Origin: Nereocystis luetkeana
Lineage: Eukaryota > Sar > Phaeophyceae > Laminariales > Laminariaceae
Direction: 5' to 3'
NCBI GenBank assembly: GCA_031213475.1
Contig: JARUPZ010000005.1
Coordinates: 9,425,848-9,489,847, forward strand
DNA length: 64,000 nt
Positions 2,976-64,000 of the stretch are shown piece after piece. Each line of letters opens with the position of its first letter. Position 1 is the first letter of the stretch. The notes under the pieces were generated by a model that saw nothing but the letters and a program-made list of their open reading frames with translations, did not search any database and was not told where the DNA came from. The position numbers were made by a program, and so were the translations under genes.

Positions 2976-3419
2976 CGGACCCGAGAGAGTAGAGGAGGAT
3001 GGCGCTGCCCCTGCGCTAGGAGCATGATGTATGTTGGTCGTCTCCCTGGGTCTGTTCTTCTCAAGCCTGCTTGGAGTACGAGCTCGCGAAGGTAGAAATA
3101 GGGAGAAATGTACACTAGAGGTTTCGGTGTGGAGGCGTAGTCGGGGTGGGGAAGAAAGGAGGCGCGGCGAGGGGAGGGTAGGTCCGTGGAGTTGCACACC
3201 AGGCAGGAATGTTTTGTTTTTCGGATTACGTTCAGGGTTAGAAAGTAAGTGGTGAATTAGCGGTGCTTTTAGTGTATGTTGGCGAGGGTTTTGTGTTTCA
3301 GAAAGCAATATGTGGCTTTTACGCTTTTTTACCCGTCTATTGGTTGGGTTAGGGCCTGCAAGAGCGGCAACATCTGTGCGTGCACGTGTGTCGGTGTTGG
3401 TTATCGTATACCTGGTAGT

Positions 3420-3560
3420 TAGTATCGATTTTTTCGTTATATAGAAATATCGAACTTTTTCGATGTATCGAAATATCACATATCGGAATTTCGATATATC
3501 AAAGTATGAAATGTCGAAAAAATCGATGTGTCGTATAGAGTGCGTTTTTGCCCTCCACCC
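3420..3560. repeat. AT-rich TCGATATATCGA-type repeat
   Basis: Overlapping variants of TATCGAAATATCGA and TTTCGATATATC make a weakly palindromic AT-rich tract. A related short patch occurs near 30135-30165. No gene is seen around it. Confidence 0.4.
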
Positions 3561-5494: not shown

Positions 5495-5622
5495 TTACGG
5501 GGGACAATAGTAAACAGGACCTCTACGGTACACACAAAAACCTACCGGTATACATTTATCTATTTTTACTACTCCGAGTATTATTAACAATATTTGGTCC
5601 TATTTACTTAGGTCCCCCGTAA
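5495..5622. mobile_element. TA-flanked MITE family 1, copy 1
   Basis: Ends are TTACGGGGGAC and GTCCCCCGTAA, with the family's inner halves (ATTTGGTCC near one end) present. The central TA of the family consensus is replaced by TACCGGTA in this copy, a relative of the TACCWGGTA word described in the findings. Confidence 0.75.
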
Positions 5623-5679: not shown

Positions 5680-6302
5680 AGTGGCCGATCAAAATACAGA
5701 GTAATAGTGTGCAACAGTACATGAGCGACAGTGGTGTGACGGCAAATACACCGCCTCTCACTGTTCCCGGTCAGCAACAGCAGCAGCGTATTAGTAGCAT
5801 ATAAAATAATCCACCCCAACTCTGTTCACGTACGCATTAATAGTGGTCTGGGACTACATAACACGGTATACCTGGTACTTCCGACGGAAAACCTGAAAAA
5901 AAAAGTAAACTTTTCGGGAAAACAACACAAAACACAGCAGTAGTATACTTCCGACGGAAAACCTGAAATAAATGTAAACTTTTATTATTAATAGGAAAAA
6001 TAACACTAAAAAACAGCTGTGATATCAAAAGTTTCAGTTTCCTCAAAACTACGGGCCATCGTGCGCTCCGGCGTGGTCTCCAGGGTGAACATTGCATGGC
6101 TTTTGAGTGAGTGCAAACACACAGTCCGAAAATAATTGAAAGGCAACCAGTAAGCAGAGTATTATTAATAATAATACGTCGAAAAACAGAGATTCTGAAG
6201 TAAACGTTGACTAAAAAAGAAGAGCAAAAAAAAAACAAAAACAGAAAGAAGCGGAAAACAGTTGAAACGGCTCTGTGCACCGGGTCAAAAATCGCGTAAT
6301 AA

Positions 6303-12343: not shown

Positions 12344-14755
12344 GCAGTCACTTGACTTCTGTCGGTAGGCTTTGTTCGTTATATTGAGCATTGACTCGAT
12401 CGAGTTAGTTGTTGGTCATCAAGCATCAGCGCTTTCGACAATTAATCAGATTATGTACAGATGCGGAAAATTTCGCCCTTTCAGTTGAAAAGCGTGCTTT
12501 TATATTTTATGAAAGTGTATGCCCTCGTTCATCAAAACCGCGTGCGCACAGACAGACAGGCAGTACGAGGTATGATAAATGCGCGATTTGTTTACTGCTC
12601 TGTGTTCGCGACAGCAACCACGCGTGTATTTGTATCTATGTTTACGTATAACTCAGTGGGAGTACTCGTACCGCCCTCTTCATAACGACCAAGACCGTGT
12701 AGAAGTAGTACGTACCGGTAGTTAGTGTATCAACTCTTCACCGGAAACTAAGTTTTCGCTTTCCGTCAGGACTGCATTATTCCCGTTATGCCGACGGTTA
12801 TTCCCGTTATGCCGACGAAACACACGGGAATCAGGGTCAGATTCAGGTTTAGGTTCACGTTGTTACTGATGTACGGCAGCGCATAATTAAAACAGTCAAC
12901 ACGGACGGGTAGATGGTTTATCGAATTAATACCTGGTGGTACGTACCTGGTAGAAGTGTCCCCCCCCCGCCCCCCCCCCCTTCTCCCCGTGTTTTATGTC
13001 TGAACACTTGCCGGTACCAAACGGTTAGTAAACCGAAGCGTAACGTCCAAAACTCTAGGAAGCGCTCGCGAAGAGTTCCAAACGAGGTAGTATAGGCCTG
13101 TCTCGCACGGAAGGAATGCTGCAGGACAGGACAGCACCAACATCGGATCGCACTAAACGGCGCAGTTTTTTTTTTTGTAAGCGCCGGAAACCTCAATGCC
13201 ACAGGGCGCCCACCCGCCCTCCGGTTTGCGGTATAACGACGTTGCCGCGATATCATCGAGCGGGATCTTATCGCGATACGGTCGAGCGAGAACTTGTCGG
13301 CATTTCATTCAGCGATTTCCTCTCATCACAAACTTGTTGAGCGATATCTTCACATGATATTCTTACTGAAATGTGTCATCATGATCTTACTGATATTTTT
13401 CATCACGACCTCACCGAGATATTGTATCACGATTTTAAAGAGATGATACAGATATAAGTCAACACGACCTCATCACGATCTTGTCGCGATGCCGTCGAAA
13501 TCTCATCGATATCGGTATGGAACATATCCAAATATTGTCACGATCTTGTCGAGATGTTAACGAGTTACGATCACGAAGATCTTGACGAGAACCGACTACC
13601 GGCGGCCCGTGTTGTTTCCGGACATCAAATAACAACAAAGAAGAGCGACGCTCCATCATAGTCGTGGTCCGACATCATACAAAACCGAAAAAGCACCAGC
13701 CAAGCCAGCCAGTGCGCATGCGGCGAGCAATGATCCCACATTCCAACAGTCGTGAACGTGGCGCGTTCGTTCGTCTCTTACAGACGACGTGCGCGGTTTC
13801 AAACGGCTACTGTGTGTGCGCGGAGAATCACCGCTGATACGGTAGCGGATGGATGTGGGTGCGATGCATAGGTAGGTGTGTGTGTGCCCGTCCTCTCAAT
13901 AAACGAGGATCGGGCCACGATTTGCGTCGATGCGAACGTTTCACCAAAAAAGGTAAAGGTCAAAAATATTCAAGACATCTTCCGCCTCCCCTACCCCTCG
14001 CGCCCCCCCCCCGTTTTACCATTCATCACCGGCGACGCCCACAGACACGAGGCGAACAAATTGGAACATAGATTACATTGATCGGACGGTAAAACGAGGG
14101 GCTGGGTCACCTCAGCTTCCCCTTTCCCCTCCCCCTCCCCCCCTTCCAACTCCCCCCAGTCCCCACCTACAGATTTCTGCAGTGTGGCACCCCCCCCCTT
14201 CCCACCAACTGCTTTGAAGTGTGGCGGGATAACAAAACAAAATATCCGGCGACTCGATTTTTTTCAAAAGGCGTGTGCGATCTCACAAGAACGCACGAAA
14301 TGATGTCGATTAACAGTGAAAACGACTCCGATATCGGTACATCGATTCCAACACCAACACACCGATTTCGATACCGGCACCCCGACTCCGATATCGGTAC
14401 CCCGATTCCCGATATCGGTACCCCGATTCCCGATATCGGTACCCCGATTCCCGATAACGGTACCCCGATCCCCGATATCGGTACCCCGATTCCCGATATC
14501 GGTACCCCGATGCCGAGAACGACTCCGATATTAGAGTGGCGTCTCGCCGGAGGCGGTCGGCAACGTCGCCAACATCATCACAGCCATCACACTCCCCTGA
14601 CGAGATAAGACATCAAGGGCAACCAGTCAGGAAGCCAGGGGATACGATGAGCAAAACGACCGCAAGGCAAGGCGAGGCAAAATGCCGCCACAAAAATGCG
14701 ACATTCGCCATCAACCATCTCACCCCCCCCCCAAAAAATCTCCAACACCAAGGAG

Positions 14756-14790
<35 letters not shown>

Positions 14791-15047: not shown

Positions 15048-33531
<18,484 letters not shown>

Positions 33532-34819: not shown

Positions 34820-35018
34820 TATTAATACCAGGTATTTAATCAGTCGAACTCACAGCTGACGTATTTCTTGATTTCAAAAAATAGGGAAATAGGTTCGCTG
34901 CTGCTGCTGTTGCTGCTTGGTGCTCGTCGACCCCCCCCCCCCCACCTCCTCTGCCCCCCTCCCCTACCCCCCTCCCTGGCCTCTTTCTTTTCTTTCGATT
35001 GCCACTCTGCAGCATAAC

Positions 35019-38000: not shown

Positions 38001-41000
38001 TTTTTGGCGGTCGGTCACAGCTGGTTGTCGAGTTAGATCGTTTGTGCGAGGTGAACAACCTTCACTCCGCACAAGTGGGCATTATCGTATCACGAAGTGT
38101 TTATGGTAAGGCACCCAAGAGGCAGTTTCATAGTACTCCCATTGCTGTCTCTGGAAGTGCCTTCACCGGAAATTGAATTTTCTCATTGAAGCTGTCGCCC
38201 ATATGCAAGTCCGCCTCACAAGCGGTTCTTAGTAGGATGCAGCTCACCCTTCATGCGACTCGCCGGACACCTCACGGCGCTTCGCGCTTGGTGCAAGCAA
38301 TGTCTGCCTGGTCGGCGAAAGCCCGACACGTCCCGGCATTGTAGGGGTGCGAAGGTCTATACGGGCATGCATGAGATCGAGTACACATCTCCTATCGAGT
38401 ACCCCCCCCCCCCTCCCCCCCGCCCCCTCCCCCTCATATATACCGGGCATTATTTATACATATATATATACAAGGTGTCCCTTCGGGATGCGATTGACTT
38501 ACAGTAGCATCCCAGGGGTTCCTCAACTTGAAAAGGGGAAGCCGCAGCATCATCAGGCGTCCCTATTTACTCCGACTACTACTATTACGGGGGACCATAG
38601 TTAATAGGACCTGTGGTACACATAAAAACCTATATATTTAACCATTTCTACTAACAATATTTGGTCCTATTAACTATGGTCCCCCGTAATATCACTACTA
38701 CTACTACTACTACTGTAAATACTGCTGTGTGGCAGGACGGAGTTCGACGGCGTGTGCTCGCTTTTAGAGTTGTACGTTAGAAATACGGACATACCCTGGT
38801 AGTAATAATAGCGTGCACTGGTATGCACTTTATGCTGTATTGTATCTCCTGGTGAACACCGCACACACATCGTACGATGTGATGAATGCGAAGACTGCTG
38901 CTGTACCGCTGCTGCTGCGGTAGCGCCTGCTTCGGCTGCGCGGTTGCTTTTTGAAGCAACGAGGAAGTGTGGATTTGTATCGTCTCGTCCTGCCCCCTGC
39001 GCCGCATCCAGTTGGAGTTACGTGCTCCTTTTGAGATTATGTAGTTAGGCGTTCGTTGCTACCCCCTAGGTCGACAGGAATCACGGTCCACACACGCACA
39101 CGCACAGATGCACCGCTCGCGGCCGTCACGAAAGGAAAAGCTTGATGTGCGACTGCTGCTGCTGCTCCGCGATTGCCTCGTTGTAGAGAGGTCGAGGGAC
39201 GGTGTGATCACACACACATGATACTGTACCGCAGCGGCGGCCAAGCGGCACCAGAAAACAAAAAAAAAAATGTGGGGTTTCCATTGTCCTGTTTGCTCTA
39301 GCAGGTCGGAATGCCTTCCTGTAGGCACTCGCCAGAATTCGCCGCGTTGTAAGTCCCAGAGCTTGTGCCACGGATCTCGGCCTGGGCTCGTGTTTGCGCC
39401 GTAGTGTACTCGCGGACCCCCTTGCATGCCACGCAGCCGAGAGCGCGAGAAAAGGCCGGCCTCCCGAAGATTCAAGTTCTGTGCTTAGCAAAAAAAGGTG
39501 TACACCATACAAAGGTTTGGGTTGGCGTCGGTCGGCAGCGACACTGTATAACATGCCGCTCACTACGTGAGCTAGACAACCGGGGTACATCCCGTTTTTT
39601 GTCCTGGGGATCGCCGCAGCTGGCGGTCGAGTTAATAGATCTTTTGTGCGGGGTGGAGAAGCTTTACTTCGCACAAGGGGAATGGTCGTATCACTTAGTG
39701 TTCGTGGCTAGGCGCCCACGAGGCAGTCACATGGTGAACCCATTCCTGTCTCTGGAAATGCCCACACCGGGGAAAAAAAACAACTGATTCGACGCTGTCG
39801 TCCATATGCAAGAAAGCCCGTCTCACAAGTGGTTCTTAGCAGGATGCAGCTCACCCTCCATGCGACTCGCCGGGCACCTCACCACGCTTCGCGCTTGGTG
39901 CAAGCAATGTCTGCCTGGTCATTGAAAACCCGACGTGCTCCGTCCCGGCATCGTAGGGATGCGAGGGTCTATGGTCATACGACCACGGCCATGCATGGTA
40001 GTGAGTACACCCCCCCCCCCCACCCCCCCCCACCCCCACCTCGTCATTGTGGGGGTGCGAAGGTCTATGGCCGTACGACTACGGCCACATGCGCGACATG
40101 ACTACACTCCGCCCTCCGTCCGCGACCAACCCTCTTATGACCACCACCTACCTCCCCGACCCTGTCGAACCGCGCGTCCCCGTTTGCTCGTCTTGCTGTC
40201 GCAGGATTTGGACAAGACTAAACAGGCGATCAAGGAACTGCTGCATGAGATAGAGGTGAGCCCCGCCCTGATGGGTGTGTGACACCCCCAAGTGGCGATC
40301 AACGCTCTGTTATCGTACGGCGGTAGATGGGACTTAGCGGTAAAGTCACGGCGGGGCGGCTCCGGTGTCTACTATTACGGGGGGCCATAGTTAATAGGAC
40401 CAAATATTGTTCTTGAAAATGGTCAAATGTTCAGGTTTTTGTGTGTACCGTAGGTCCTATTTACTATGGTCCCCCGTGACAGACCAGTGAAAAATGCCAG
40501 CCAAAGATGCTATCGCCCGGGGTCGGACCTTTTTCGAGCGCGTCAAGGCTTCCTTCGGCTTTAGTATATTGGGGGTTTGTAGTGTGTCCGGGGGCGGGCA
40601 GCGAGGGGTTTAACCACGGTCTCCTACGAGTATTGTAGTACCCTTGCTGCCAATCGTGCGTGGTCGAAGGACGCCATCATAGCGGCAGTATATATTGATT
40701 TGTCTTTTTAGCAGGGTAGCGATTCACGGAAGGCCTACTGACGGAAGTGTTGGCGGACGGCCTGTTGGTTGACGACCCATTGAAGGCCTATTGACGGACG
40801 GTCTGCTGGTGGGCGACCTACTGAGGGCCAATCGATGGATGGCCTGTTGTAGGACAAACTGTGAATAGACGACCTGCTGAGAGCCTATTTATGGACGGCC
40901 TGTTGGCAGACGATCTACTGATTGGACGGCTTGTTGATTATTTGTGGATGGCCTGTTGGTAGCTGGCCTATTGATGGGCGACCGCCTGTTGACGGCGGTC

Positions 41001-43897
41001 TGTAGATGAAAGACCTGTTCATGGACGGCCTATGAAATACCGATAGATGACCTATTGATGGTGGCATATCGTTTTGACGACATAGTGATTATCTAGTGAT
41101 AGTCAGTTCGGTTCGGTTCTAATCGGTTTGGTTCTGCTCGGCTTTTGGTTGGTACGGTTCGGTTTCGTTCGGTTCCGCTGGTTCGGTTCGGTTCGGTTCG
41201 GTTCGGTTCGGTTCGGTTCGGTTCGGTTCGGTTCGGTTAGGCTTCGCGTGGTTTTATTTTGTTTCGTATACTGTTCAATCCCGTCACATTCCGTTTTGTT
41301 CCGGTACCTGCCTCAGCCGCTTCACTCCTCTTGCCCTGCGTGGACGAACGTGCTACTGCCGTCGTCGCTGTCGTTGTGGTGCTGCGCTTGGGCGAACGCA
41401 GGACAATAAGGACGACCTCAAGTCGGTGGCGCAGGAAAAGCTTGACCTGATCCGTGTTTCGCTCTCCGCGTTCTCCACCGGCTACCGAGAAGCCCGGTAA
41501 GCCGCGAGCCTCTAAAGACAAGCCCCCCGCCGTGGCTTGAATGAACACAAACCCCGACGAGCCGAAGGCTGTACAGTTGTTTGCTAATGATCTCACGGCT
41601 ACAATAGTTATTGTTACGCGGGACCATACGGTGGTAGTACTAATCAGAACGCAAGGAGGCGTGTACACATAGAGGTATTTTTTGGGGGGGCCCATCGTGG
41701 GTTCTGATTCTTACTGCACACCGGGTATGCCCTCCCGCAGTGATTATGTGGCGAAGTAAGCCAACCATATTGACAACAAATGTTCAGCCAAGAAAGGCCC
41801 TAGCTGGGGCCTGGACACTCTCTGACCCTAAGTCTATCAACCCAGACAGTCAGGGAAAATTATCGGGAAGATTATGTAACCAAGCCTGGGAAACATTTCG
41901 GATTGAAGGCGTAAGTGGGGGTTAGTGTGGACTGTCGCCGCTTGCTGCGGCAGGGTAGAGATACACAGCACTTGTTTTTTCTTGAGGCTCCTTACTTGAC
42001 CTTAAGGAGCTATGTACCTCACCCAACCTCACCCAAAAAACATGTTTTATTAAATGCTACCAGGTAGTAAAAGTGCAACCCGACGAACAGTCCATATATT
42101 CGACATTTTTTAGCCTGTACTATATGCCAGGTAGGTATAATCACGAAAAATGTTGTAAATATCTTCGGAATGGTATTTACTCTAGCGATTTCTGGGTGAA
42201 GAAGCCCGGTCAGGTCAGAAATATTTTCGACCAAAAAGTGCTACCGGTATTAATAAAAGACATGCCCTATCATAGCACGCGTCAAAAGCCAACCATTTTG
42301 ATGAAGCTGGGTCTAAGCTCTACACGTACTACTGGTGCTGTTGTTTTAGTCCTTGAATGATTTTTCGAGTAACAAGGCTATTTTCTCTGTACCATTTTGA
42401 TGAAGCTGGGTCTAAGCTCTACACGTACTACTGGTGCTGTTGTTTTAGTCCTTGAATGATTTTTCAAGTAACAAGGCTTAGTTTCTCATTTTTTTGTTGT
42501 TCATTTTTGTTGTTGTTGTGTGTTCGGGTTTGGTTTTCCAACAAATAGCTGTCACGATGTTCGCCCCACTCTTGCACGCTAACGCTGACTCGCGTTCGTT
42601 TGCTCATATCCCCACGGAAACGAAACAGTCTGACGACTCGATGATAACGTTTAACTACCGATAGCGCTATCAATACGGAGTGTGCCCGCTTAATGTGAAT
42701 ATGATAGCGTAGTATCGTCACGTTTCTTGAATAAAAGTAGTGGCGTTATATATTACGGGGGGGCATAGTTAACAGGACCTATGGTATACATAAAAACCTA
42801 TATGTTTAGCCATTTTTACTCACAATATTTGGTCCTGTTAACTATGGCCCCCCGTAATAGCAGCAAGAGAGACCAGGGGCTGAAGAACGCTCTATTTATG
42901 CACGATATAAATATTAATAGTATCGTTTTGGGTTTCTATTTGTCAGTGATAATGGCACTATGTTTCTATACTGCGTCATATGTTCTCTGCTAACGGCGTT
43001 ATGTTTCGTAAAAAACACAAACCCCCCCCCCCCGACAATCACAGGGACCAGGAGATCAAGCGCGTGATGGCGATGGACAAGAGCATGCTGCAGAGCTTCC
43101 TTAGCGAGAGGGCGGGAGAGGTCAAGCACGCCTCCTCCCTCCTCTCCGACGCCCTCCTCAAAGACGACGCCAGAGGCACCAACGCCAACCCGGCCACGGG
43201 AAACGCCTCCAAAACCGCAATTCCTTCTGTGGCAGCGGCGGCGGAACCGACAGCTGGAGCGACGGCGAGGGGGCAGGAGGGAGGTGACGTCGAACCGGAT
43301 GGGGGCTTCAGCGACCCGCGAGTACTCCTGTCCAGGCGCGCGCGAAGCGCGGTGGACAGCCTGCTGCACGACCCGGACATCGAGAGGCTGACGGGGCGGG
43401 CGGCGGGTTTTGCGCGGGGGAGGCTTTTGCAGGCGGAAGCTGCCGCCAGGATTCTGAAGGGAGAGGATGAAGGAGAAGTAAACGAGGCGGGGGGTGTGGG
43501 AGGAGTGGCGCAGGTCTCTTCTGCGATTGCAGGGCGGCGGGGGGGCAAGGGCGGGCATAGTGCGAGGGGGAGCGGCGACGCGCATGCGAGAGAAGGTGGC
43601 GGCGGCGGTGGCGGCCCCGATGGGGGAGGGTCGGAAACGCCGATAATTTCGAGCTTGGCGAAGGAGGCTAGGGAGTTCGTGGCGGGGAAGATGGGGCAGG
43701 CTCAGGATGGCGCGAGGGAGGTGGCCGAGGCCGCCATGGAAGTTAGACGTTCGCATCGAGCGGCCGAGTCGAAAAACGTTGACCGTAAGGAGGGGGGAGC
43801 CGCGAGGGTGGAGGGTGGGATGGTGGATGCGGCAGACGGGGAGGAGGAGAGGCAAGGGGCGTCGGATGGTACCAAAGTCGGTGGAGACGGGAAGTAG
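35019..43897 (+). CDS. Hypothetical helix-rich protein, five exons, 420 aa
   Basis: Exons: 35019-35089, 35680-35872, 40205-40255, 41402-41496, 43045-43897, with GT-AG boundaries and consistent phases (71, 193, 51, 95 and 853 nt; 421 codons including stop). I do not recognise the family. Residues 1-23 start MAPMPNPDWYEEKKD. Exon 2 has an aromatic stretch (VWKTTWEWYITSFEHSFAW) followed by a basic/charged helix (RRRKEDAKKKEAQDKMD). Exons 3-5 continue as amphipathic heptad-like sequence (KQAIKELLHEIE, KSVAQEKLDLIR, IKRVMAMDKSMLQSFLSE) to about residue 175. The rest is low-complexity Ala/Gly/Glu-rich, with two further short helices (VDSLLHDPDIERL, SSLAKEAREFVAGKM). A membrane- or lipid-surface-binding coiled coil is one guess. 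Introns of 0.6-4.3 kb are full of repeats. Confidence 0.72.
36379..36595 (+). repeat. Family 3 partial copy
   Basis: CCTCACAAGCGGTTCTTAGT, GCTTCGCGCTTG, TCCGGCATTGTA and GGTCTATGGTCATACGA appear in the same order as in the full copies at 37.9 and 39.5 kb, with a small insertion near 36400 and the poly-C end reduced to short C runs. Confidence 0.75.
36875..37335 (+). repeat. Tandem duplication, ~237-bp unit, two diverged copies
   Basis: Both copies contain TCGATCGACAAACCC-like sequence, then CTAGTGTCAC(G/A)GTGCTCACACC, TCGGTCGGTGA and GTGGCGTGGG in the same order about 237 bp apart. Confidence 0.75.
37911..38430 (+). repeat. Family 3 full-length copy A (~520 bp, poly-C end)
   Basis: It starts GGTTGGGTTGGCGTCGG and ends GAGTACCCCCCC. 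No ORF is conserved between copies A and B, and no terminal inverted repeat was found. A non-autonomous element is likely. Confidence 0.8.
38585..38689. mobile_element. MITE family 1 copy, closest to my consensus
   Basis: Perfect-looking ends TTACGGGGGACCATAGTTAA and its complement, TA outside both ends, and the simple centre AAAACCTATATATTTAACC. I used this copy as the reference for the others. Confidence 0.92.
39514..40108 (+). repeat. Family 3 full-length copy B plus a partial third unit
   Basis: 39514-40040 aligns end to end with copy A. It is followed directly by another terminal piece (GGTCTATGGCCGTACGACTA, about 40045-40108) after the C-rich tract. Copies A and B are in direct orientation about 1.1 kb apart, inside intron 2 of the five-exon gene. 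Confidence 0.8.
40375..40479. mobile_element. MITE family 1 copy
   Basis: TTACGGGGGGCCATAGTTAA to GGTCCCCCGTGA, about 120 bp downstream of exon 3 of the hypothetical gene. Confidence 0.88.
40725..41060 (+). repeat. Degenerate GGACGGCCTGTTG repeat
   Basis: About 15 irregular units contain GACGGCCTGTTG and GACGACCTACTGA in intron 3 of the hypothetical gene. Confidence 0.7.
41105..41240 (+). repeat. (GGTTC)n microsatellite
   Basis: A GGTTC pentamer run, pure over about 41180-41240, lies 160 bp upstream of exon 4 of the hypothetical gene. Confidence 0.9.
42292..42480 (+). repeat. Tandem duplication, 99-bp unit, two nearly identical copies
   Basis: ACCATTTTGATGAAGCTGGG at 42292 recurs at 42391 and the two units differ at very few positions, so the event is recent. 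Confidence 0.9.
42753..42857. mobile_element. MITE family 1 copy
   Basis: TTACGGGGGGGCATAGTTAA to ATGGCCCCCCGTAA with TA on each side, in intron 4 of the hypothetical gene. Confidence 0.9.
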
Positions 43898-44793: not shown

Positions 44794-46792
44794 TAGTGAT
44801 GGGTGATGATGCTGATGATGAAAACAGCAACGATGGCGATGATGATGGTGGTGGCAAAGATGGCAATGGCGATGAAGATCACACCACGACGCGAAGCTCG
44901 AGCGGTACCGGTTGCGACGACCGCCGCAGCGCACCGTTCTTTCTGCTCGAGCAGTCACCACAGCAGCTACTCCATAGCGTACACCGCTTGACACAGCCAA
45001 CCGTAGAGTTTTTGCGGGGAAACACCACCACACCTTGCACCGGCGAAAATAAACGTGTCATTAACTAAAATCGTACTGGAAATAGACGTAATTATAGACT
45101 TTCCGAATTCGGGGGAGACGAAACGTACCAGCTAAAAAATGGGGTGAGATATTTCACCAGGCAAGACAATACTACTACTACTGAAAAAAAGAAAACGGTG
45201 CAAGAAAAGGCTTAAAATTCGTTAGACAATATACCCGCCCTTTAATTGCAGATTGTTACAACGATGGTTCCCTGGGCTGGGCAATCGATCGACCTTTCAC
45301 CCCTACAGCTCAGCAGCAGGTATTACCTCCACGCAGAAACCCCAGTTGCCAGCTTACAGTTGTAACATTTTTTTCCTTCTTTTTCTCTGTCGCAGCATGG
45401 GGGGCGCACGTAACGAAACCACCATATTGTAAAGAGTCCCCCAGGTGTACCTGTTATTATTATGCTTACCTGTTATTGGTAGGGGTAAGTTAATATATAT
45501 CGCGCCACAAAGCGGTAAATATAATACCACTTCAGTGTGGTTTTACGCCAGTACCTGGTATACGGTATAATAAGAAGCTCTGCGAGACCTGGGGGTTATG
45601 TGTCCGAAAAAAAAGTCTCCGAAACCACACGCCCTTATGTCCGGGGCGTAGACAGGCGGGGGGCATCCTATTACTAATAGGACAATCTTTTGATTGCCGC
45701 TTGTTTCTGTTCGGACTTTCCAACGGAAAAATTAATGTAATCTTTAACCTGTAACTACACCACGCCGATCGCCATACACGCACGTAATAAGGCAACAGCA
45801 CCGTAGGGAACAACAGACGAGCGCACATCGTTGGCTCTTCTTTATTACATACAACGGAATACGAAGTATACCCCCAGCCTCGATCTACAAAAAGTATCCC
45901 CCCCCCCCCTCTTTTCCTCCTCCTGTGGGCAGTGGCGGGATCGGGGCTGTTGCTTGCTGCTGCTGCTGTTGTTGTTGTGGTTGTTGATGTTGTTGTTGTT
46001 GATGCTCTCGTGTCCTTGATGGATGGCCGAAGCATATACATACCTGGTACATCATCACCATAGAAAACAGCACAGTACTCGTGTATACCCGTATAGTCTA
46101 CTATACGAGGTGCGTTACTCAGCTACCAGGTAGTGTGTGTATATGACCTGCCCGACCTGGTACGAAGACGAGCTGAAAAATGAAAATAAAAAGGGCAACG
46201 TCGAACGTCGAAAACGTGGCATGTTTTTCAACATGTTGGATCCACGAAAACATGTACCATGGAGCTGCTGCGCAGCTGTGACACGTGCTCATACTTCATT
46301 TCAAACCTCTGGGCTATAACGCTAGATGGCCCATTCTTTGAAAAATTGAAACCGCCAAGGGTGGGGGGGTTTGGGTGGGTAGGTATACCGGCCCAGCCCG
46401 CTGGCGTGTCCGTGATCCTATGTCATTTACCACCAATGGGAATGATCACCACGCTGGTCCTTTTCTTGGATCTTACCATATATGGAAGGCATGTTTGGTT
46501 AGGGGGTACATGGTACATCCGAGTACGTTGATGTTGACCTCCGGGCGGGTACTGGCTAGACAAGCGGGTACTGGACAAGCAAAGCATACACGGCTGAGTG
46601 TAGGAAGCTGGCGGTGGACATCTGACTGGCAACACCTATACTACTGTTGTGAGGATTGAGGCTTGAGGGGGTGACAGGAAGCTTCTGAGGAATCATTGCA
46701 TCTCAGTTTTGAGCACTACTTCCTTTTTGTTGCTGTGTACGTAAGCAAATCATCATATTCCGGTACCTGGTACTGCTGCTGGCGACATCTCG

Positions 46793-53150: not shown

Positions 53151-53994
53151 TATTCCAGTAGATCGCGTTGTGTCCGACGTGTTAATGCTGCCATCCCTGG
53201 CATAGAACAAGATGACGCGACACACTTGAAGGCTTTGCGCGCCCTGTAATCCTTACCTGGTAATTTTTTCCATGTCTGCACAAGGCAAAAATTTGGAAGA
53301 AAAGCAGAATCGACAGCTGTAGGTGGTTTCTTAAAAGGTCTGACTCCTTGCAAGAAAGAAGTTCGTTTCTTCCGAAAATTCACAGCGAAAACAGCTGCAC
53401 GGACTTACCAGGTGACGTTTCAACGTGCCATGTAAGGTTCTGCGGTCGTGGTCGTAATCACGGCCGCCTAATGCTCCTGAAATACAACACACAATGTCGT
53501 ACCCCGTACGCTTGTTCGAGACCCAAAACCTGGACCACTTTGTCTCGCCCCCCCATAACGGTTGAAATTCTGTCAACATAAAAAGACAAACTCCAACTGG
53601 AGGGGGTGGGGGGGCGGGGGGGGAAACAAGCGAAAAAAAAAAACAAAAGGGGAAACAAAAACAAACAAAAACGTATCCACCCTAGAAATTAGTTCCAGCG
53701 CCGGAGACGACGGCCAAGTGCCTCGCGCACCCAAAAATGGCTGCACGCGGAGACAAGAAAAACCGCACCCACCCTCCTCTAGGGGGAGAGCGGTTGCGCG
53801 TGATCCCCCCTCCGGTGCAATCAAAACAGCTGATTGGTAAATACCCGATGCGATAAAACCAATAAAAACGCGTTGAATGCTCCCCATCCTCCTCTCCCCC
53901 TGTAGCGACCGGCAGGCGAGCGAGGTCATCATCGGGATGATTCCGAAACAAAAAAAAAAATCCGCTTCCTCCTTGACGGAATCATCCGGCACCT

Positions 53995-54634: not shown

Positions 54635-57600
54635 TCACATCATGTCTTGGCCTACGACTAACGCCTGGCATTTTCGAGGCGGTCGATGCGCGAGCGCCTC
54701 CCCGCCAAACACGACGCTAACCGCCGCGCCCCCTGTCACTCCCACCGCCGGGTACACCGTGCCTCGAATTCGCATGACCGCCAGCTCGTCTCCTTGCCCT
54801 AGTGGCTCGCCCCCCGAGGTAAAAAATAGCATGGGAAGGTCAGTGAAGTCTAAGGCGATCCCTATCACATCGCCCTCCTTGACCTGATGCGAACATTGAC
54901 GGGCGAAGCGTGCACGCAACGGCGCGCGGGGGGGGGGGTTACTTATTTGCCACGCATGGCCATGGTATGATATGACCACAGACCATCACATCCCTATACC
55001 TACAACGCCGGGACGGACCGAGTCGGCTTTTCACTTACCAGGCAAACATAGCAGGAGGGGGGGGGGGGGGGGTGAGGGCATTTGTTGGGTATGTCGTATG
55101 TACCTACGGGTATCAGCCGTACTGGAGGCTTACGCATGCGCACAGGGAGGGGGGGGGGGGTGTACTCGATAGGAGATACAAGGCGCTTCGCTCCGCGGGC
55201 GGCCTACGCCGCCCACTACGCTCGCTCAGGAAGGAAAAAAGTACATCAAATTATGCGAAGCGAAGAGAGGTCCACGATTGAGTTTAGTGTTTTCAAGGAT
55301 CGTAATCGCAAACCGGCGACTTGATAATGCCAAGAGTCCCGCCGCCATGCTTCAGGAAAAAGCAGCTCCGACGTCAGCTTGGATGCCACATATACGCTTC
55401 GCGTCGCGGATGTCGTACGTACGTACATACACCCCAGGTAGGGTACTACTGTCTGTACTTATTTTCTTCTTTCGATATGCTCAATGTCTGCACTGTACCT
55501 GGTATGTACGAAGAAAGCGAAAGCACAGCACGGCACAGCAGCAAAAACCATGAAAATGAAACCGAAAACTCGGAAAGGAAAAAAAATCCCCGTCCCCTCT
55601 CGTGTAATATTTTTCTGCCTGATTGGAACACCTTACACCCGGGTCGAAAAGAAGAAAAGAAAAAATCGCAGAGAAGAGCTTCTCTCTCAGCCTCGTACGC
55701 CGCCCACCCCTCTCGCGACCACCTCGCTACCGATTCGGTCCGGGTAAAGCTTTTATCACTCTCTGCCACAATCAGCCCCGTCGCCCGCCCCGCGTGAAGC
55801 CCGGTGCTCACCGTGGCCTTCGTTCGCCAGCTCGATAACGTTGGTGTTCAAACTGCACACCTCCCTCTTTCAACTTCAGCGTGGTCGCAAAAATAAGCAC
55901 CGCTTGAATATTATCTTGCCCTCCCGTACGACCTTTATAAACTCGTACATGCTCTATCAACAATCATAAATCGAATCCAGACAAAGCCCGTTCATGCATC
56001 CCTCGTGTCTCGAGGCACACGCGACGCCTAGGCACGAAAGCGGCGACCGCGCTCCTTGCAACCCCCCCTCTACCCGCCAGCACCCGCTGGCACCCGTGAC
56101 GGTGCCGGGTCCTCCCGCGATGCCGTGCTCGGAGAACACGCACGCACACGAAACGAAAGAAGAAAAAAAGAAGAAATGACCGAGAAAACAAAGTACTGCT
56201 GGAAAGGTCCGGCAAGTAATGAAAGGAGGCGGTTTGGAAGTGGGAGCTCTGAGAGGCCAGGGAGGCACCAACCGAGCACGCTCAGGGGTTGTGATCTAAG
56301 TATGTAGTTCTATGTACTCGATTTATGCATGGCCGTAGTCGTATGACCATAGACCCTCGCATCCCTACAATGCCGGGACGGAGCACGTCGGGTTTTCACC
56401 GACCAGGCAGACATTGTTTGCACCAAGCGCGAAGCGCCGTGAGGTCTTCGGCGAGTAGCATGAACGGTGAGCTGCATCCTACTAAGAACCGCTTGAGAGG
56501 CGTATTTTCTTGCGTATGGATGACTAGCATCAATGAATTGATTTAATTTCTGGTGTGGCCAGCTTCCAGAGACAGCAATGAATGGGGTTACCATGTAACT
56601 GCCTCGTGGGTGCCTCACCATATACACACTACGTGAAACGATCATCCCCCTAGGCCGGGGGGGGGGGGTGTTCGGCGTGATACACCAACCAACCAGCCGA
56701 CTCGCTTGCATCGAAAGGGAGTGGAGGGGCTGGGAATTTCCACGAGGCGTGTGGTTTCGCTATGGTAGGGATTGCAAATAAGCCGCCCTATTCACTGTTA
56801 TTTTTTTTTTCCAAAATTTCCAAATCTCCAAATTCACCGCCAAATGGCTCTTTGCTGGCCAATAGGAGAAAAATGTCTTCAAAAAAAAAAAAAAAAAAAC
56901 AGTAAACAAAAAAGATGGAAAAGTTGGAAGAAAAAACAATCATGGAACAAGACCAGGCGTTATAATTTGGAGGTGGCGCTCTTAAAATATGGATGACTGA
57001 CGGGGGGGGGGGGGTCCTGAACTGAACTGAGTTGAAAATTACCCAATGTCACTGGAACATTATTTGTGTTTTACACCGTTATTTTTCATACCTTACCTAC
57101 AGTGGACCATGGGATCGATTGTTAACCGGGTTGCACCTTCTATTCGGTACCCAACACCGGTATACCGTACCGTATTCCGTACACATTAGAGCTTCCTCGC
57201 GCAAAAAAAATAGACAAGTGCGTACAGATAGGCTGGCCACCCGCTAATTATACAAAATGGTTCGTATCCCCCACGTTACTCTCGCCCAAGGGGGAAGGGT
57301 CACCGACACGATCTATATACGGCACGCGACATTTATCATGTGTTTTGAGAATTTGGGGACTCGAGCATTTCAGGCTGGTGGGTTCTTATTCTTCAATTCA
57401 AGAATTTGCAGCTAGAAGCATTTGTGCTGAGCGAGGGCTGCTGCCCTAAATCATATAGAATAGCCTCCAAGAACCCATGCCCATGCTCGACGTTGACACC
57501 ACAAAAAGCCGCGAGACTTGGCCGGAACAGGAGATTCTTAACTGCTGCCGCGTATCATTTTGTGTCCCTCCGTCGCGAAATCAGCGAACCACACACGTGC

Positions 57601-60600
57601 AACTTCTATGCATCTGGTATGACCTTATTTACACGAGAGGGGATATTAGTAAGAGTTTATCGCGTCCCTCCGAACATTCATTTACAGCACGCGCGACCGA
57701 AGCATCACACGCGGCCTGCAAACATGAAATGATTCGAAGAAACGATCGACCTCGCTCGTAGCCGATGAAGGCGTCTGCCCCTCTAGATTTCGACCACCAC
57801 AAGGCGTACGGTACATCCATCCCCAAAACGCAAAACGCACGACCTACAGTGAAACAGAGCACATCCCAAAAACAGATCAAAACTCATAGCCCACACCCCG
57901 TCGAAACAAAAACGCCAAACACAAAGGGAGAGGGAAACGGGGAGTAAAAATGATACCATGGGTATTCACGAGCACGTGTATAGGCGAAACTTGAAGCAAC
58001 GGCAACGGGGGACATTTGGGAGCCATCCCCGAAAACCGACATCCAACCCTGCCTCCTATCACCCGAAACCCCAGGCCTGAAATCCGGGGAATGACTCACA
58101 AACGTACCCATAGCCGTGATGAATATCTCGCCTACATACATACGTACAGTAGTTCTTCCTCACTACCGCGTCGTTTTCCAGGAAAATCTACTCACCGATC
58201 CCGCGGCGCCTCCGCCGGAGGTGGAAAACCCCCAAGTTTTTTCCCCGTCTCCCAGCTTCGGCTGTCCCAGCAGCACCTCGCTGTCGCCATCTGGGGCGGG
58301 GCGTCGGGAAACCCCCAAGCTGATCGCACCGCCCGGAGGCAGCGATGTAACGGTCGCTTCCCTGAGCAAGGAGGCGGTAACGGGTCAGAGGGGTGGCGGT
58401 GGTGGTGTCACAAGGAGGCTGCAGGTGGTAAGAAGCGACGAACATCTAGCGGTAGGCGTTCACAGAGATACAGTGGCGGTAGTGGTACAAGAACGAAGGT
58501 GAGAAACCCAAATCTATTTACGCCGCGTCAGGAGGAAGCGATGTAGCCGTCGCTTCCCTAAGGAGGGAGGCGGTAGGCGTTCACGGGGGGCGGTGGTGGT
58601 GGTGGTCGTCGTCATGCTATATAAGGACATAGTAGGTGGCAAGGCAACGGAAATCTAATTACGCCGCGTCTGGAGGAAGCGCATGTAACCGTCCCTTCCC
58701 TCAGGAAGGAGGCGGTAGGCGTTCGCGGGGGACGGTGGTGGTGGTCGTGGTACAAGACGGTGATCAACGAACAGCTTCCCTTGGGATGCTTTTCTTTCAC
58801 CAGCTCTGCGGAGCGCAGCTCGGGCTGTACCGGCCGGGGAACACCGTCTGAGGAAGTGCTCACCCTGCTGTGGTACGAGGTGAACCTGTCTGAAGAATAT
58901 TCAGCAGTCTGCCACGCCACACACGGATGGGTGCACGAAGCACCCCCAATGCACTACAGGTCGCTTGGTGGCATTACTACCGGTAGGACTATCAGTAGTG
59001 GCAGTCTGGTTGGTGGCATCACTATGGTTTGGTGACACCGCTGTACCATGGGCTGGTGGCATCAGGCTCCAATGCCAACGCGACAAAATATAACAAAGGG
59101 GAAACAAAAAAAACGTCCCCGCCCTGGTAATGCCTCCTCACCAGTATGCTGAGTCCTATCGCCGAAGAAGAACCCCCGCCCCCCGCCCGAGCCGTCGAAG
59201 AGGCGATACGCCCGGGACGAAGGGGCGGACAAACGAGAGCATGCGCAGAAAAATATACAGAGCAAGCACGGGGCAAGCGCGGAGAAAACAAGAATAGGGT
59301 ACGGAGAAAATGTGGAGAAAATGCAGAGAAACGGTGGAGAAAATGCGGACAACGTTCACGGAAGAAGCACGGAGCGGAGCACGGCAGAGGGGCGGGATAC
59401 AGGGATTCATGGCTCGCTGGGTATTGCTACGTTCCAAGGCTGTGCTTAGCAGGGGATATACCCTGGAGGTACCCGGGTACCTACCCGAGTGAGGTACACG
59501 GGTATCTACCCGAGTGATACCCGGAAAAGGCCGAGCGGGTACCCGGGTTTACCCGAGTAAGTCTAACCCGTCAAGTCGGTACCCCGAGTCCCCCAGAGTA
59601 TTCACGCTACAAGTCGGACATATCAGGACCTATCTGATCTATCGAGCTACAGCGGATCATCTAGATCCCAGCCCGCCGTGATGACATGCTGGGCAGGGGC
59701 CGTACAGCACAGGTCTAACCCAGGACACATATCGCAGGCCACGTAGATTACACGGCTTCCATCCTGCAACATGAGCTACTACAATGACTTCAGATCCCAA
59801 AACAGATCAGGACTGTCTGCCGTGATATAGAACTACATACTTAGATCACAACCCCTGAGCGTGCTCGGTTGGTGCCTCCCTGGCCTCTCAGAGCTCCCAC
59901 TTCCAAACCGCCTCCTTTCATTACTTGCCGGACCTTTCCAGCAGTTCTTTGTTTTCTCGGTCCTTTCTCCCTTTTTTCTTCTTTCGTTTCGTGTGCGTGC
60001 GTGTACTCCGAGCACGGCATCGCGGGAGGACCCGGCACCGTCGCGGGTGTCAGCGGGTGCTGGCGGGTAGAGGGGGGGTTGCAAGGAGCGCGGTCGCCGC
60101 TTTCGTGCCTAGGCGTCGCGTGTGCCTCGAGACACGAGGGATGCATGAACGGGCGTTGTCTGGCTTCCATCTACGCTTGTTGATAGAGTATGTACGAGTT
60201 GTAAGGGGCGTTCGGGACTGCAAGATAATATTCAAGCGGTGCTTATTTTTGCGACCACGCTGAAGTTGAAAGAGGGAGGTGTGCAGTTTGAACACCAACG
60301 TTATCGAGCTGGCGAACGACGGCCACGGTGAGCACCGGGCTTCACGCGAGGCGGGCGACGGGGCTGATTGTGGCAGAGTGATAAAAGCTTTACCCGGACC
60401 GAACCGGTAGCGAGGTGGTCGCGAGAGGGGCGGGCGGCGTACGAGGCTGAGAGAGAAGCTCTTCTGTGCGATTTTTTTCTTTTCTTCTTTTTGACCGGGT
60501 GTAAGGTGTTCCAATCAGGCAGAAAAGTATTACACGAGAAGAGGGGACGGGGATTTTTTTTCCTTTCCGAGTTTTCGGTTTCATTTTCATGGGTTTTGCT

Positions 60601-61906
60601 GCTGTGCCGTGTGCTGTGCTTTCGCTTTCTTCGTGCATACGAGTACAGACATAGAGCATATCGAAAGAAGAAAATAAGTACAGACAACAGTAGTATCCTA
60701 CCTGGGGTGTATGTACGTACGTACGACATCCGCGACGCGAAGCGTATGTGCATCCGAGCTGGCGTCGGAGCTGCTTTTTCCTGAAGCATGGCAGCGGGAC
60801 TCTTGGCATTATCAGGTCGCCGGTTTGCAATTACGACCTAAACTCAATCGTGGACCTCTGTCACTTCGCATAATTTGATGTACTTTTTTCCTTCCTGAGC
60901 GAGCGTAGCGGGCGGCGTAGGCCGCCCGCGGAGCGAAGCGCCTTGTGTCTAATACGGGGTACCGAAGTACGGTAAACCCAAAAACCTACCAGGTACCAGG
61001 TACCAGGTATATATTTCCCCATTTTTACGAACAATATTTGGTTATATTTGTTGTCGTCTCCCGTCATAGAACATGGAAACGATCTGAAGATGATCTGTAG
61101 AATATCTGTAAATTATCTACCAGGTGTGTGGATTAGTGTGTCGGCATGTGTGTCTGTGTGTCTCGCGTGGGTCGGTGTGTATGAATTCGTGTGTCGGCAA
61201 CTGCTGCGTGTTTGGAGTGGTGATCCAAACTGGTGCCTGCGTTACGATGCAAGGGGTCGTGCGGCACGAGGCGCGAGCATGACCCTGCCCGTACTGCCTG
61301 CTGGGCTCTCACGCTGCTCGTATATACCTGGTAGACGGTTGACAACACCAGAGCTATCGTTGTCTCGGTCGCTTATGTCGGCGTCGCAAAGGGGGTAACA
61401 GCAGTTAATAGTCGTGCCAGAGGTACACACATCGGCGCGGACACTGGTTGTGCTGGATGTCGACGGGCAGAAAGACCGGCCTAACGTGAAGGACACACAC
61501 ACAGCAGTGCAGGACGTGCATATATGACATTCTGCATTCCTGCGCTGTGCGTTGGTTTGTTTCAAGAGACTTGCCCACAGATAGCACCCACAGCTTCATC
61601 ATATTCTGGCTGAGCACCGGCGCCCATCCAGAGACCGCACAAGCACTCGTGCGCCAGCGGATCAGGCATGCGCCTTCAGTCGCCCCTCTCCTCTCTCTAC
61701 TCTCTTACCTGCTCCACCGGAGCGCAGCCCAGCGCAAGCCCATTCCCGGAGACCCTGCCCCCCTCGACGACAACATCCCTTCCCTTCATCTTGCCGTCCA
61801 TCGTGAAGGGTGTTCTCGAAGCTCCGCCTAGCTCGACCCCGGAATTTCCTCCGCTGCCCACCCCGCTCCCGAGCACTACCCGCATGATGCTCTCGCAGCA
61901 CCCCAT
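54635..61906 (-). CDS. SPRYD7-type SPRY-domain gene; first and last exons recognised
   Basis: First exon 61709-61906 encodes MGCCESIMRV and, after a variable linker, MKGRDVVVEGGRVSGNGLAL then GCAPVEQ, ending at CAG|GTAAG. Last exon 54635-54883, after CATCAG, encodes VKEGDVIGIALDF, then MRIRGTVYPAVGV, to a stop. Both align with the two ends of human SPRYD7 (DVVIVKNGRRICGTGG...SAPLHQ and QEGDVVGI...GIRGTVYPVVYVD), in the same order and phase. I could not find the middle exon (the YFE...GIWGIGVA part, about 60 codons) in the 6.8 kb between. The N-terminal MGCC could be lipid-modified (Gly2 myristoylation, Cys palmitoylation). Either the middle exon is small and diverged, or the gene is broken. 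The intron region holds two inverted 1.13-kb repeats and other elements. The function of SPRYD7 is poorly known; SPRY domains usually bind proteins. Confidence 0.72.
54926..55048 (-). repeat. Family 3 terminal fragment in the SPRYD7-type gene
   Basis: It reads inverted (GGCCATGGTATGATATGACC, CGCCGGGACGGACC) and has a poly-G run on its left, the complement of the poly-C end. Confidence 0.6.
55150..56645 (-). repeat. Family 3 copy D, interrupted by a 1.13-kb insertion
   Basis: The left piece, poly-G plus TGTACTCGATAGGAGAT (to 55177), and the right piece, GTACTCGATTTATGCATGG onward (56314 to about 56645), are contiguous in family 3 copy A. The 1.13-kb repeat lies exactly between them. Confidence 0.7.
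55178..56313 (+). repeat. 1.13-kb repeat, left copy of an inverted pair
   Basis: It starts ACAAGGCGCTTCGCTCCGCG and ends AGTATGTAGTTCTAT. The same sequence occurs inverted at 59827-60946 with scattered differences. The first ~50 bp contain a small palindrome (GGGCGGCCTACGCCGCCC). ORFs in it (for example 55321-55797) differ between copies and are probably not genes. The class of element is unknown. Confidence 0.85.
58310..58770 (+). repeat. Three direct repeats of ~140-200 bp (GGAGGAAGCGATGTAACCGT)
   Basis: Units start near 58325, 58520 and 58665. Each contains GGAGG(C/A)AGCGATGTA, TCGCTTCCCT, GGAGGCGGTA and a GGTGG run. The first unit lies in an ORF of normal composition (58116-58502), so a decayed coding origin is possible. 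Confidence 0.65.
59445..59575 (+). repeat. TACCCGGGTACCTACCCGAG repeat
   Basis: About five irregular units rich in the palindromes CCCGGG and GGTACC lie between the inverted 1.13-kb repeats. Confidence 0.7.
59827..60946 (-). repeat. 1.13-kb repeat, right copy of an inverted pair
   Basis: It is the reverse complement of 55178-56313. At the position where the left copy has TGTACCTGGTATGT this copy has a plain TA (CGTATGC on the complementary strand). No flanking duplication was recognised. Confidence 0.85.
60951..61067. mobile_element. Decayed MITE family 1 copy with three CCAGGTA units
   Basis: AATACGGGGTACC to GTCTCCCGTCATA, with the family centre AAAAACCTA...TATATTT split by three CCAGGTA units in tandem. 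Confidence 0.7.
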
Positions 61907-64000
61907 ACTTCCTCCCCCTTGCGTTGAGGAACTGTCTATACGGTGCTGTGAGAGGTATGGTGTGTTAGTGGAACACTCCGCATCTTGGAGTTTGTATAGA
62001 TATGAATTGCATTTCTTCTCAAAGAAACGATCGTATCCATCCCCTACGTAGTCACGGTATCTCCGGTTTTCGTTCTCTGTCCGGTCGGCTGTTTGTTGTG
62101 TGTTGGATCAACGCACCGGTATCTTGCAACGCTTACATGCCCGCCCGAATGCGTCATTGGTGCTTTCCGCAGCAATATCTACACACGTGTATACTCGACC
62201 CTCCATGTCACCTCCCGTTCTGTTGTTCTCTTTCGCTGTTTAGGTTCGGCGAGCGCAGAGTGCGTTCGTCGTTCACCCCACACCAAGAGTTCGTTTTTTT
62301 TTTGGAGAAACGACAAAATAAACGGTGCGAACGAATCACAGACGACGAAGACCCTGCGCTTCGTTTACCGCCCTCCCAATGACACAACAACAGCAGTAGC
62401 AGCTGAAGGACCCCATTGGTATGTAAATGTGGCCATGGGCTTCAATTCTACTCATACCAGGCGTTCATCATATTTTCAGCATAACAACAGGTTATAGGCC
62501 TCTCGTGTTTTGCTTCTTCTGCGCAACAATACCTCGTACCTGGTATTCGATTCTTCCCCTTCTATTACGGGGGACCATAGTTAATATGATCAAGCAAAGT
62601 ATTGTTAGTAAAAATAGTCAAATATATACCTGGTAGGCTTTTATTTACACCACAGGTCCTATTCACTATGCCAACCCCGTAATAAGAGACTCACGTATAA
62701 TAGAAATATTAACTCATCTTCTTGGACGAGCGTGTCAATTAGGTCCTCATGTAACAAAAACGAGGCTCGACAAACTCTGCAGTTTCCTATACGCACCCTT
62801 CAACTATTAATACGTGCTGCTGCAATAATGCTGACTGTTTCCCTCCTCCCGGAGAACCTGACTCGCTCGTGTATCTTGGTGGCCAGCTCGTTGTAATCTA
62901 CCGTGCAAACAGCGAGGGTTGCAGCATACCTGGTACATACCTACTGGTTGACGGCGGCTGCTCGCCATGTGTTATATGGCCAACCCCGCGACGACCCCAG
63001 ACAAACGTGGAACGACAGCTCCTTCTTGCAGGGCTCTTGACGCGTCATGACTCGATCCGTGAGCTCGGTCAGGAACTTTTCGAAATCTCACGGGTCGGGA
63101 GGTTTTAAGCTCCTACGAATCGGGTCGGGCACACCCTTACTCGACCCGACCCCGACCTGACCCGCGAGGTTTGATCCGACCCGTCAGAAACCTTGATTAT
63201 GAATATTTGCCGATCTTGCCACCGCAAATCGTTCGTGGAGCCGGATGGCATTTATGTATGTGATGCCACCGGCAACGGCGATGCTCCCGATAGGTTTTGG
63301 TGCTTATGAGGTATGTGTACACCGGTGATGATCAACGCAAGAATAGCCTGTACTAGGTATCCGTTTGGGAGGTACCTCTGGCCTCAGTTGCGTTCTGCTA
63401 CGTATCTAATATGAGAGCATCATCATCATCACCATCACCATAATCATATATTTGTCCGCTAGGTACGACGCAACAAATGAGACGAGGACGAGACAGCACC
63501 ATTCTGAGTTTGTTCGTGTGGAAAAACTCCCACTATCAAACAAGAAACCCCACCTGGGTCAGCTGTCCTGTTTCTTAAGGGGTGCGGACAGACAGACAGG
63601 CAAACAGACACACAGACAGGCATACAGACATACAGAAAATTTGCATTTACCAAAACAGAGACTCAGCTTTACAAGCTGAGAAAAGCATTCAGCAAGGCCA
63701 CCGAATATTGCATTAAATCGAGGGGAGCCCAGTCCATAGAGCGGGTGTTTGGAGGCGTGTCCAGCTCGATTAGTCCAGCATTAGGCGCAAACAGTCAACT
63801 TTACTGACCACTTTATGCGCGGGAAGTTCACGAACATTAGGGATGAGGAACGCGAAGCGATGCTAGCCTTACCGGGTACTCGGCTATCCCCCAAGAAGAG
63901 GTACTGCTGGAACGCCGTCGAAACATCGCCTACAACGTTTCGATCGAACCGCGTTGGTGGGCACACCCGGAGCGGACATAACTGTCTGCCAACTGATGCC
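61907..64000. other. Upstream region of the SPRYD7-type gene and right edge; no supported gene
   Basis: The promoter of the minus-strand SPRYD7-type gene should lie just above 61906. The rest holds one MITE, an ACAGACAGGCA run (about 63588-63640) and short ORFs. The ORFs at 62869-63108 and around 63660-63960 have non-repetitive composition but no recognisable family. Confidence 0.5.
62565..62682. mobile_element. MITE family 1 copy with a CCTGGTA insertion
   Basis: TTACGGGGGACCATAGTTAA to GCCAACCCCGTAA. Relative to the reference copy (read on the opposite strand) its centre has ATATATACCTGGTAGG in place of ATATATAGG. Confidence 0.85.

Follow-up and report, generated by a model that had tools for sequence, protein, structure and literature searches.

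The question raised by the stretch of Nereocystis luetkeana DNA analyzed here, a 64,000-nucleotide part of contig 5 of a 465-Mb assembly that we call the window, is how a 9-bp palindrome, TACCWGGTA (W being A or T), came to be scattered along it. A sequence-only reading of the window had counted about 24 exact copies and interpreted them as the footprints of an active transposon with CCWGG ends. The evidence gathered here indicates that TACCWGGTA is probably the excision scar of a cut-and-paste transposon of the Tc1/mariner type, Stowaway-like and targeting TA, and we infer that a transposase made the scars; as to which element left them, the proposal set out below is more tentative.

Counting gave 24 exact copies in the window and confirmed the start coordinates read for 20 of them; the copy placed at 22675 lies at 22676, and the triple placed at 60989, 60996 and 61003 lies at 60987, 60994 and 61001. 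None of 100 dinucleotide-preserving shuffles reached 24 (mean 0.30, maximum 3), and TACCWGGTA is the commonest odd 9-bp palindrome of the window, the next ones, TAGGWCCTA and AGATSATCT, being present 7 times each. A genome-wide count, which had been suggested as a check together with this comparison among palindromes, also gave a strong excess, with 182,395 copies against 1,744 for the reversed-pattern control, and the directly abutting double, TACCWGGTACCWGGTA, was found 15,917 times genome-wide against 2 for its control. Since 20 unselected 10-kb stretches of contigs 1-5 (L045-L064, GC content 47-54%), used as a sample, contain 69 copies, 0 to 11 per stretch, the window is typical of the genome. 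Window and sample together (264 kb) hold 93 copies against 1.7 expected, 41 of them with A and 52 with T at the centre, and with 14,137 TAs in that length about 0.7% of all TAs are scarred.

Scars adjoining another scar amount to 8.7%, and the pair, genome and TA counts imply that tandem units are about 12 times commoner than random hits predict. Slippage of a 7-base tandem repeat, as in the heptamer arrays of bacterial intergenic DNA, might account for such tandems: triples do occur here, and arrays of three to five TACCWGG units are present in 40 bacterial loci (L001-L040, from several Acidimicrobiia, Chitinophaga, Deltaproteobacteria and Planctomycetes), some of them flanked by degenerate heptamers. 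However, 80 of the 86 blocks in the 264 kb are single units, which slippage cannot start, and the two units of a tandem pair often differ in their centre (19 of 59 plus-strand pairs among those listed, by hand count). The bacterial arrays share the unit TACCWGG but run head-to-tail, whereas the insertions here are dispersed and single, and slippage is an account that we regard as largely refuted, with hardly any probability left to it.

Comparison of repeat copies supports what the motif is: TACCWGGTA is a 7-bp insertion that duplicates TA, with A or T centres at one and the same TA. In the window, the left arm of an inverted repeat with 1.13-kb arms carries TACCTGGTA at 55496, where the right arm, as had been noticed from the letters alone, lacks the motif; the net difference is 6 bp owing to a 1-base change in the right arm. 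The repeat is high-copy (1,688 first-look candidates genome-wide, of which 40 were scored and 20 loci fetched, about 95% identical). The site is filled in 8 of the 20 loci, the window's own included (TACCTGG in 5, TACCAGG in 3), is without insert in 10 (in one of which TA has become TG), reads TA-CG-TA in one and has a different 4-base addition in another; since a filled query was used to rank the loci by similarity, the true proportion of filled sites is lower than 8 of 20. L066 contains another match of the repeat, more divergent and also filled, which is not in this count. Two other TAs are filled in the L072 copy alone, being empty in the 19 other copies. Self-alignments over about 337 kb, including loci chosen for carrying the motif, gave 23 seven-base insertion entries that passed the filters. 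Thirteen of these duplicate TA and all thirteen are TACCWGG, eight at the 55496 site and five elsewhere; in the remaining ten an intact TA is not duplicated, and they are unrelated, except that two of them record one decayed CACCAGG in L064. Inserts of other lengths that duplicate TA are also present and were not treated as scars; of 26 twelve-base inserts, for example, 14 duplicate it (TACTACTGTCTG and its complement).

Insertions at TA are likewise found in a family of miniature inverted-repeat transposable elements (MITEs), MITE1. The centre of its copies had been read as carrying the insert, and indeed does so as TACCWGG at 17152 and 62627, as three successive units at 60987 and as the variant TACCGG at 5543. 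Among 45 aligned copies (the triple at 60987 excluded) inserts stand at at least four different TAs, in the forms CCWGG, CCGG, CCATGG and CCCCTGG. The centre TA is filled in 9 of the 45, with six CCWGG or decayed CCWGG, two CCGG and one CCATGG as read from the alignment, and non-centre TAs are filled in L075, L053, L064 and at window position 26203. As inserts occupy several TAs of the MITE and an unrelated repeat besides, a single old MITE subfamily, which had been considered as an alternative, fails as the whole story. At one fixed TA, lying between GTCTGTACTG and TATGTACGAAG, a genome-wide count of filled places gave 45 with 1-30 extra bases (hand count). The main form is TACCWGG (11 of 45, six with T and five with A); the others are CTG (11), TATG (7), CATG (4), G (3), TACGTG (2), TATGTACTG (2) and, once each, TACCCTGG, TACG, TACTG, TATGG and TTG. 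The presence of both centres makes at least two separate events at this TA likely. Plain TA is taken as ancestral because most copies of each repeat are plain; two TAs are thus present where the ancestral site has one, and one TA can bear, besides the main form, a range of related minor ones, as in a footprint. Variant units also run in tandem in the window, at 3630-3655, as TACCTCG-TACCACG-TACCACG (compare TACCTCG-TACCTGG at 62530-62545), and CCACG and CCTCG, each observed 10 times against 3.3 and 3.8 expected, may be further scar forms.

The surroundings of the scars point in the same direction. Counting outward from the TA, flanks in the window have A or T at position 7 in 38 of 44 cases and T at position 6 in 24 of 44 (32 and 19 of 38 when three MITE1 copies are omitted); in the independent sample, A or T is at position 7 in 97 of 128 (p 8e-10), T at position 6 in 53, A at position 1 in 8 and T at position 1 in 64 of the 128. 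Twelve flanks of TACCGGTA have the same tendency, and the preference was not found in the window for flanks of TACGTA and TACWGTA. Transposase targets are expected to show such a symmetric preference around TA. With a scar in place, another TA lies at exactly the preferred distance, and this would account for the growth of tandems. The proposed conversion of plain TA into TA-CCWGG-TA is thus borne out by the exact gain of seven bases, the plain ancestral TA, both centres at one TA and the symmetric target preference. With regard to age, the 93 exact copies of the 264 kb are accompanied by 102 one-mismatch neighbours against 42.7 expected, from which a mean decay of about 8% per site follows; transitions make up most of the excess, the inner C being an exception (C>G 13, C>A 11, C>T 5) to which variant scars may add. 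A selected protein-binding or chromatin site would also suit the palindromic form and its symmetric flanks, but this reading is contradicted by the private 7-bp gains at different TAs inside repeat copies, and the minor series of related inserts and the decay mostly by transitions also speak against it; we consider such a site very improbable.

We propose an excision model for the origin of the motif. In the model, an element would insert at TA and duplicate it. The transposase would later excise it by cuts lying a few bases in from its two ends, and once the break was joined both TAs would remain, with some of the element's terminal bases between them, mostly the five bases CC[A/T]GG. If the ends were CCA...TGG, one end would contribute three of these bases and the other two (CCA+GG giving CCAGG, CC+TGG giving CCTGG); if they were CCAGG, a 5-base overhang would have self-annealed around an A:A mismatch. 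Rarer joins would leave CCGG, CG, CCATGG or CCCTGG. New insertions would favour TAs with A or T seven bases away, and an existing scar would provide such a TA, leading to tandem scars.

Scars of this kind have been described. For Stowaway MITEs and plant mariner-like elements (a wheat beta-amylase intron, rice Osmar in yeast), two papers report TA on both sides with 1-4 bp end fragments in between, including TACTC...AGTA as a 3+2 join (PMC1925063), several forms at one site and re-insertion at a scarred TA (PMC1925063, PMC4561436), and others deal with rice Stowaway elements excising in yeast (PMC3660474), with the excision of mariner elements in rice (PMC4423477) and with the variety of mariner scars (PMC3770610). 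Unlike the handful of scars in those systems, about 180,000 are present here, with one dominant palindromic form, CCWGG, and a candidate element ending in CCACTCTG. The Tc1/mariner scars of Sleeping Beauty share with those found here the duplicated TA and the central A/T ambiguity; here five bases are left rather than three, and the form is not TA-CWG-TA.

Several points weigh against excision as the origin. Filled repeat copies may descend from a filled master, so that 11 copies at one TA need not be 11 events. Independent trimming of the two ends would presumably yield products less uniform than CCWGG, and forms with an extra C lie outside what CCA/TGG ends would leave (CCCTGG/CCAGGG 11 against 1.0 expected, CCCGGG 6 against 0.25). 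It is conceivable, though improbable, that no transposon leaves at all and that CCWGG(TA) is added at TA by an enzyme or repair reaction not yet recognised; this would be a self-limiting 7-base micro-insertion whose product, a TA 7 bases from a TA, is the preferred next target, and it would have reached about 180,000 copies through new hits and the growth of tandems. For the excision model there is, moreover, no transposase gene in hand, no family search for transposases having been made, and no element with CCWGG ends was found among 99 half sites, TACCWGG without a second TA, in the 264 kb (60 of them, and the 15 most shared 10-mers, were inspected). The recurrent half-site families seen there have conserved flanks, which means that TACCWGG is not their end, and exact inverted 12-mers, large insertions and inverted TACC pairs revealed no CC-ended element with inverted ends besides candidates of the family MITE3. 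The original interpretation therefore stands in part: the marks of a TA-transposon footprint were found, and the active element with CCWGG ends was not.

Another TA transposon with true CCAGG/CCTGG ends, now rare or extinct in this genome, whose 5-base overhangs self-anneal around an A:A mismatch like the CAG of Sleeping Beauty, would explain the uniform CC[A/T]GG and both centres at once, much as Sleeping Beauty leaves TACAGTA and TACTGTA, and the average decay of the scars is in its favour. Nevertheless, no half-site family with varying flanks was seen among the half sites inspected, and the staggers of Sleeping Beauty and mariner are of 3 bases, not 5 (PMC7827188), the 3' overhangs being repaired by end joining. 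We regard such a source as unlikely.

A narrower form of the excision model names as the source MITE3, an element of about 83 bp (TA-CCACTCTGTCCGGAAA ... TTTCCGGACAGAGTGG-TA), moved by an autonomous mariner-like relative; we consider it plausible, if somewhat short of probable. MITE3 is a Stowaway-like MITE, TA-CCACTCTGTCCGGAAATATAAGGACCGTT, with a TA target duplication, terminal inverted repeats and a short body, typically 83 bp in all (18 of the 45 measurable copies among 60 fetched), and its ends TA-CCACTCTGTCCGGAAA occur 1,173 times genome-wide with at most one mismatch against 0 for the control. The TA target, the small size and the inverted ends are shared with Stowaway MITEs, whose ends its inner end GTCCGGAAATATAAGG resembles. 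The ends of MITE3 begin, however, with CCACTCTG and not with CTCCCTC, the Stowaway consensus in Table 1 of PMC4423477. From the 60 fetched copies, 13 were removed because they belong to a larger repeat and 5 more because they are duplicates; about five of the 42 kept still resemble that repeat. In the 60 (L085-L144), at least 13 have MITE3 fixed inside this larger repeat (about GCTGCTGTATGTACTCGTACGTACC, MITE3, CGGTAGAGTATTTTTACTCGATCG), the two seemingly having spread together.

With MITE3 as the source, CCAGG would be a 3+2 and CCTGG a 2+3 join of CCA/TGG ends, CCGG a 2+2 and CCATGG a 3+3 join, TACCAGGTA and TACCTGGTA being predicted as the main scar sequences and CCGG and CCATGG as minor ones. 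In the 337 kb, CCAGG and CCTGG (one count, two strands) were observed 142 times against 3.2 expected and CCGG 24 times against 5.8; CCATGG was seen 3 times against 0.3 and the control CCTAGG 0 times against 0.2, in small numbers. MITE3-like ends stand in the MITE1-centre context that also bears scars at 46 places (at most one mismatch, 7 exact) against 3 for the control, these being junctions, not whole elements. Two of the 42 de-duplicated copies sit directly on a TACCAGG scar (L123, L142), and MITE3 flanks have A or T at position 7 in 32 of 42 and avoid A at position 1 (3 of 42). Other observations count against MITE3: T is at position 1 in 5 of 42 flanks versus 82 of 172 for scars and at position 6 in 7 of 42 versus 77 of 172; of 18 MITE3 flanks taken earlier from the first sample, 9 have A or T at position 7; the repeat with MITE3 fixed at one TA offers 0 empty or scarred sites with exact flanks; and 182,395 scars face 1,173 near-exact ends, older ends falling outside that pattern. 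In addition, the 46 junctions are fewer than the some 200 that we had roughly estimated beforehand for identical targets, CCACG is only as frequent as its control CCTCG, and CCAGGG, at 11 against 1.0, lies outside the prediction. It is because this evidence is mixed that we hold excision as such to be probable and stop short of that for MITE3.

Some further sequences were set aside. L063:7861-9344, taken as a 1.5-kb element, reads as two MITE3 copies of about 83 bp, and no transposase was recognised by eye in its frames, no family search having been made on this stretch. A 360-bp insert in L047 beginning TACCGGTCGCCCCGG ends in an A/T tract and looks retroposon-like, and MITE2 (CAGTCCCGTTTTGGGGACAAA), tried as a control of the Sleeping Beauty kind, was given up since its sequence conservation extends further outward.

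Other palindromes between TAs are in excess as well. MITE1 ends are mostly TA-TTACGG, and TA-TTAA-TA fits the 2+2 excision scar that such ends would predict: TATTAATA sites number 58 against 2.7 expected in the 264 kb and, with another background model, 75 against 2.0 in the 337-kb set, and three gains appear in the self-alignments. This suggests that more than one TA transposon leaves palindromic scars here. Several TA-X-TA palindromes exceed CCWGG in fold over expectation in the 264 kb, among them simple TA repeats, TA-GATSATC-TA and TA-TTA(W)TAA-TA (14 against 0.08), the last of which perhaps reflects TAA slippage or a relation to MITE1. TACWGTA is 3.8-fold over expectation (91 against 24). 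Two palindromes were discounted, TAGGWCCTA as matching the MITE1 body and TA-GATSATC-TA (8 against 0.06) as mostly a local cluster at 25.4-25.6 kb of the window, where 5 of its 7 AGATSATCT lie; the window is densely palindromic at 25403-25640, with ATCTGTAGAT/AGATSATCT units. In three loci the 1.13-kb repeat lies in the middle of MITE1 at the centre TA (L076:791-1923, L082:795-1924, L069:792-1926), the way a mobile element sharing this target would. In viral contigs, neither the MITE1 pattern nor the TACCWGG triple had an exact match.

The coordinates of the scars and of neighbouring features are collected in Table 1. The window looks eukaryotic, with few long reading frames and exon-like pieces kilobases apart. 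This spacing, the GC content of the sample and contigs as long as 21.9 Mb are reminiscent of brown algae. On the minus strand at 17605-22838 such pieces suggest introns of about 2.5 kb; ATP-synthase is the only domain match, and the motifs of the pieces read like those of V-ATPase subunit B. A tRNA search of the window found none, and Rfam gave no match at the gathering threshold, six sub-threshold matches (E up to 0.1) being taken as chance. A search of phages for the Memo protein returned one weak record, which was not used.

Table 1. Scars, repeats and neighbouring genes along the window
Feature	Position	Strand	Basis
TA-CCTGG-TA	3409..3417	.	pattern count
TA-CCGG-TA variant, centre of MITE1 copy (5494-5624)	5543..5550	.	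MITE1 alignment
TA-CCTGG-TA	5869..5877	.	pattern count
Reverse-transcriptase frame	6585-11546		
TA-CCTGG-TG...TA-CCTGG-TA, one decayed, one intact (at 12944)	12930..12952	.	
TA-CCTGG-TA, centre of MITE1 copy	17152..17160	.	pattern count, MITE1 alignment
ATP-synthase-family exon	19583-20353	minus	
TA-CCAGG-TA	21753..21761	.	pattern count
TA-CCTGG-TA, centre of longer palindrome	22676..22684	.	pattern count
TA-CCAGG-TA	30533..30541	.	pattern count
MITE3, divergent Stowaway-like 85-bp copy, ends TACCAATCTGTCCGG.../...TTTCCGGACAGGGTGATA; candidate source family	31327..31411	.	
TA-CCTGG-TA	31810..31818	.	pattern count
TGCCAGG-TACCTGG-TA, tandem pair, one decayed (intact at 34400)	34393..34408	.	
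TA-CCAGG-TA, just outside MITE1 copy	34826..34834	.	
MITE1 reference copy, plain (empty) centre	38583..38694	+	MITE1 alignment
TA-CCAGG-TA	42058..42066	.	pattern count
TA-CCTGG-TA	45552..45560	.	pattern count
TA-CCTGG-TA	46041..46049	.	pattern count
TA-CCAGG-TA	46124..46132	.	pattern count
TA-CCTGG-TA, just upstream of Memo reading-frame start (46793)	46764..46772	.	
Memo gene	46793-47704		
TA-CCTGG-TA	53254..53262	.	pattern count
Left arm of 1.13-kb inverted repeat, high-copy	55174..56313	+	
TA-CCTGG-TA in left arm; no insertion in 10 of 20 fetched genomic copies	55496..55504	.	
Right arm of 1.13-kb inverted repeat, without 7-bp insertion	59827..60950	-	
TACCAGG three times in a row, MITE1 centre	60987..61009	.	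pattern count
TA-CCTGG-TA	61325..61333	.	pattern count
TACCTCG-TACCTGG-TA, variant and intact unit (intact at 62537)	62530..62545	.	
TA-CCTGG-TA, MITE1 centre, empty in other copies	62627..62635	.	MITE1 alignment
TA-CCTGG-TA	62927..62935	.	pattern count

Of the two halves of cut-and-paste transposition, excision is the one that usually leaves few traces. Scars of the kind described here are known, and what is unusual is their scale and uniformity, with a uniform scar at about one TA in 140 (182,395 in about 25 million TAs, scaled from the sample). No comparable genome-wide census was found in the open-licence literature, by searches not aimed at every wording, and the literal 9-mers led to no transposon paper by title. 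If the motif is indeed a footprint, the genome has undergone a very large number of 7-bp gains, and searches for conserved motifs in such genomes will pick up transposon scars. Excisions would then become countable and roughly datable, target preference, repair outcome and the re-use of sites would be legible from sequence alone, and the genome would be a readable record of past jumps.

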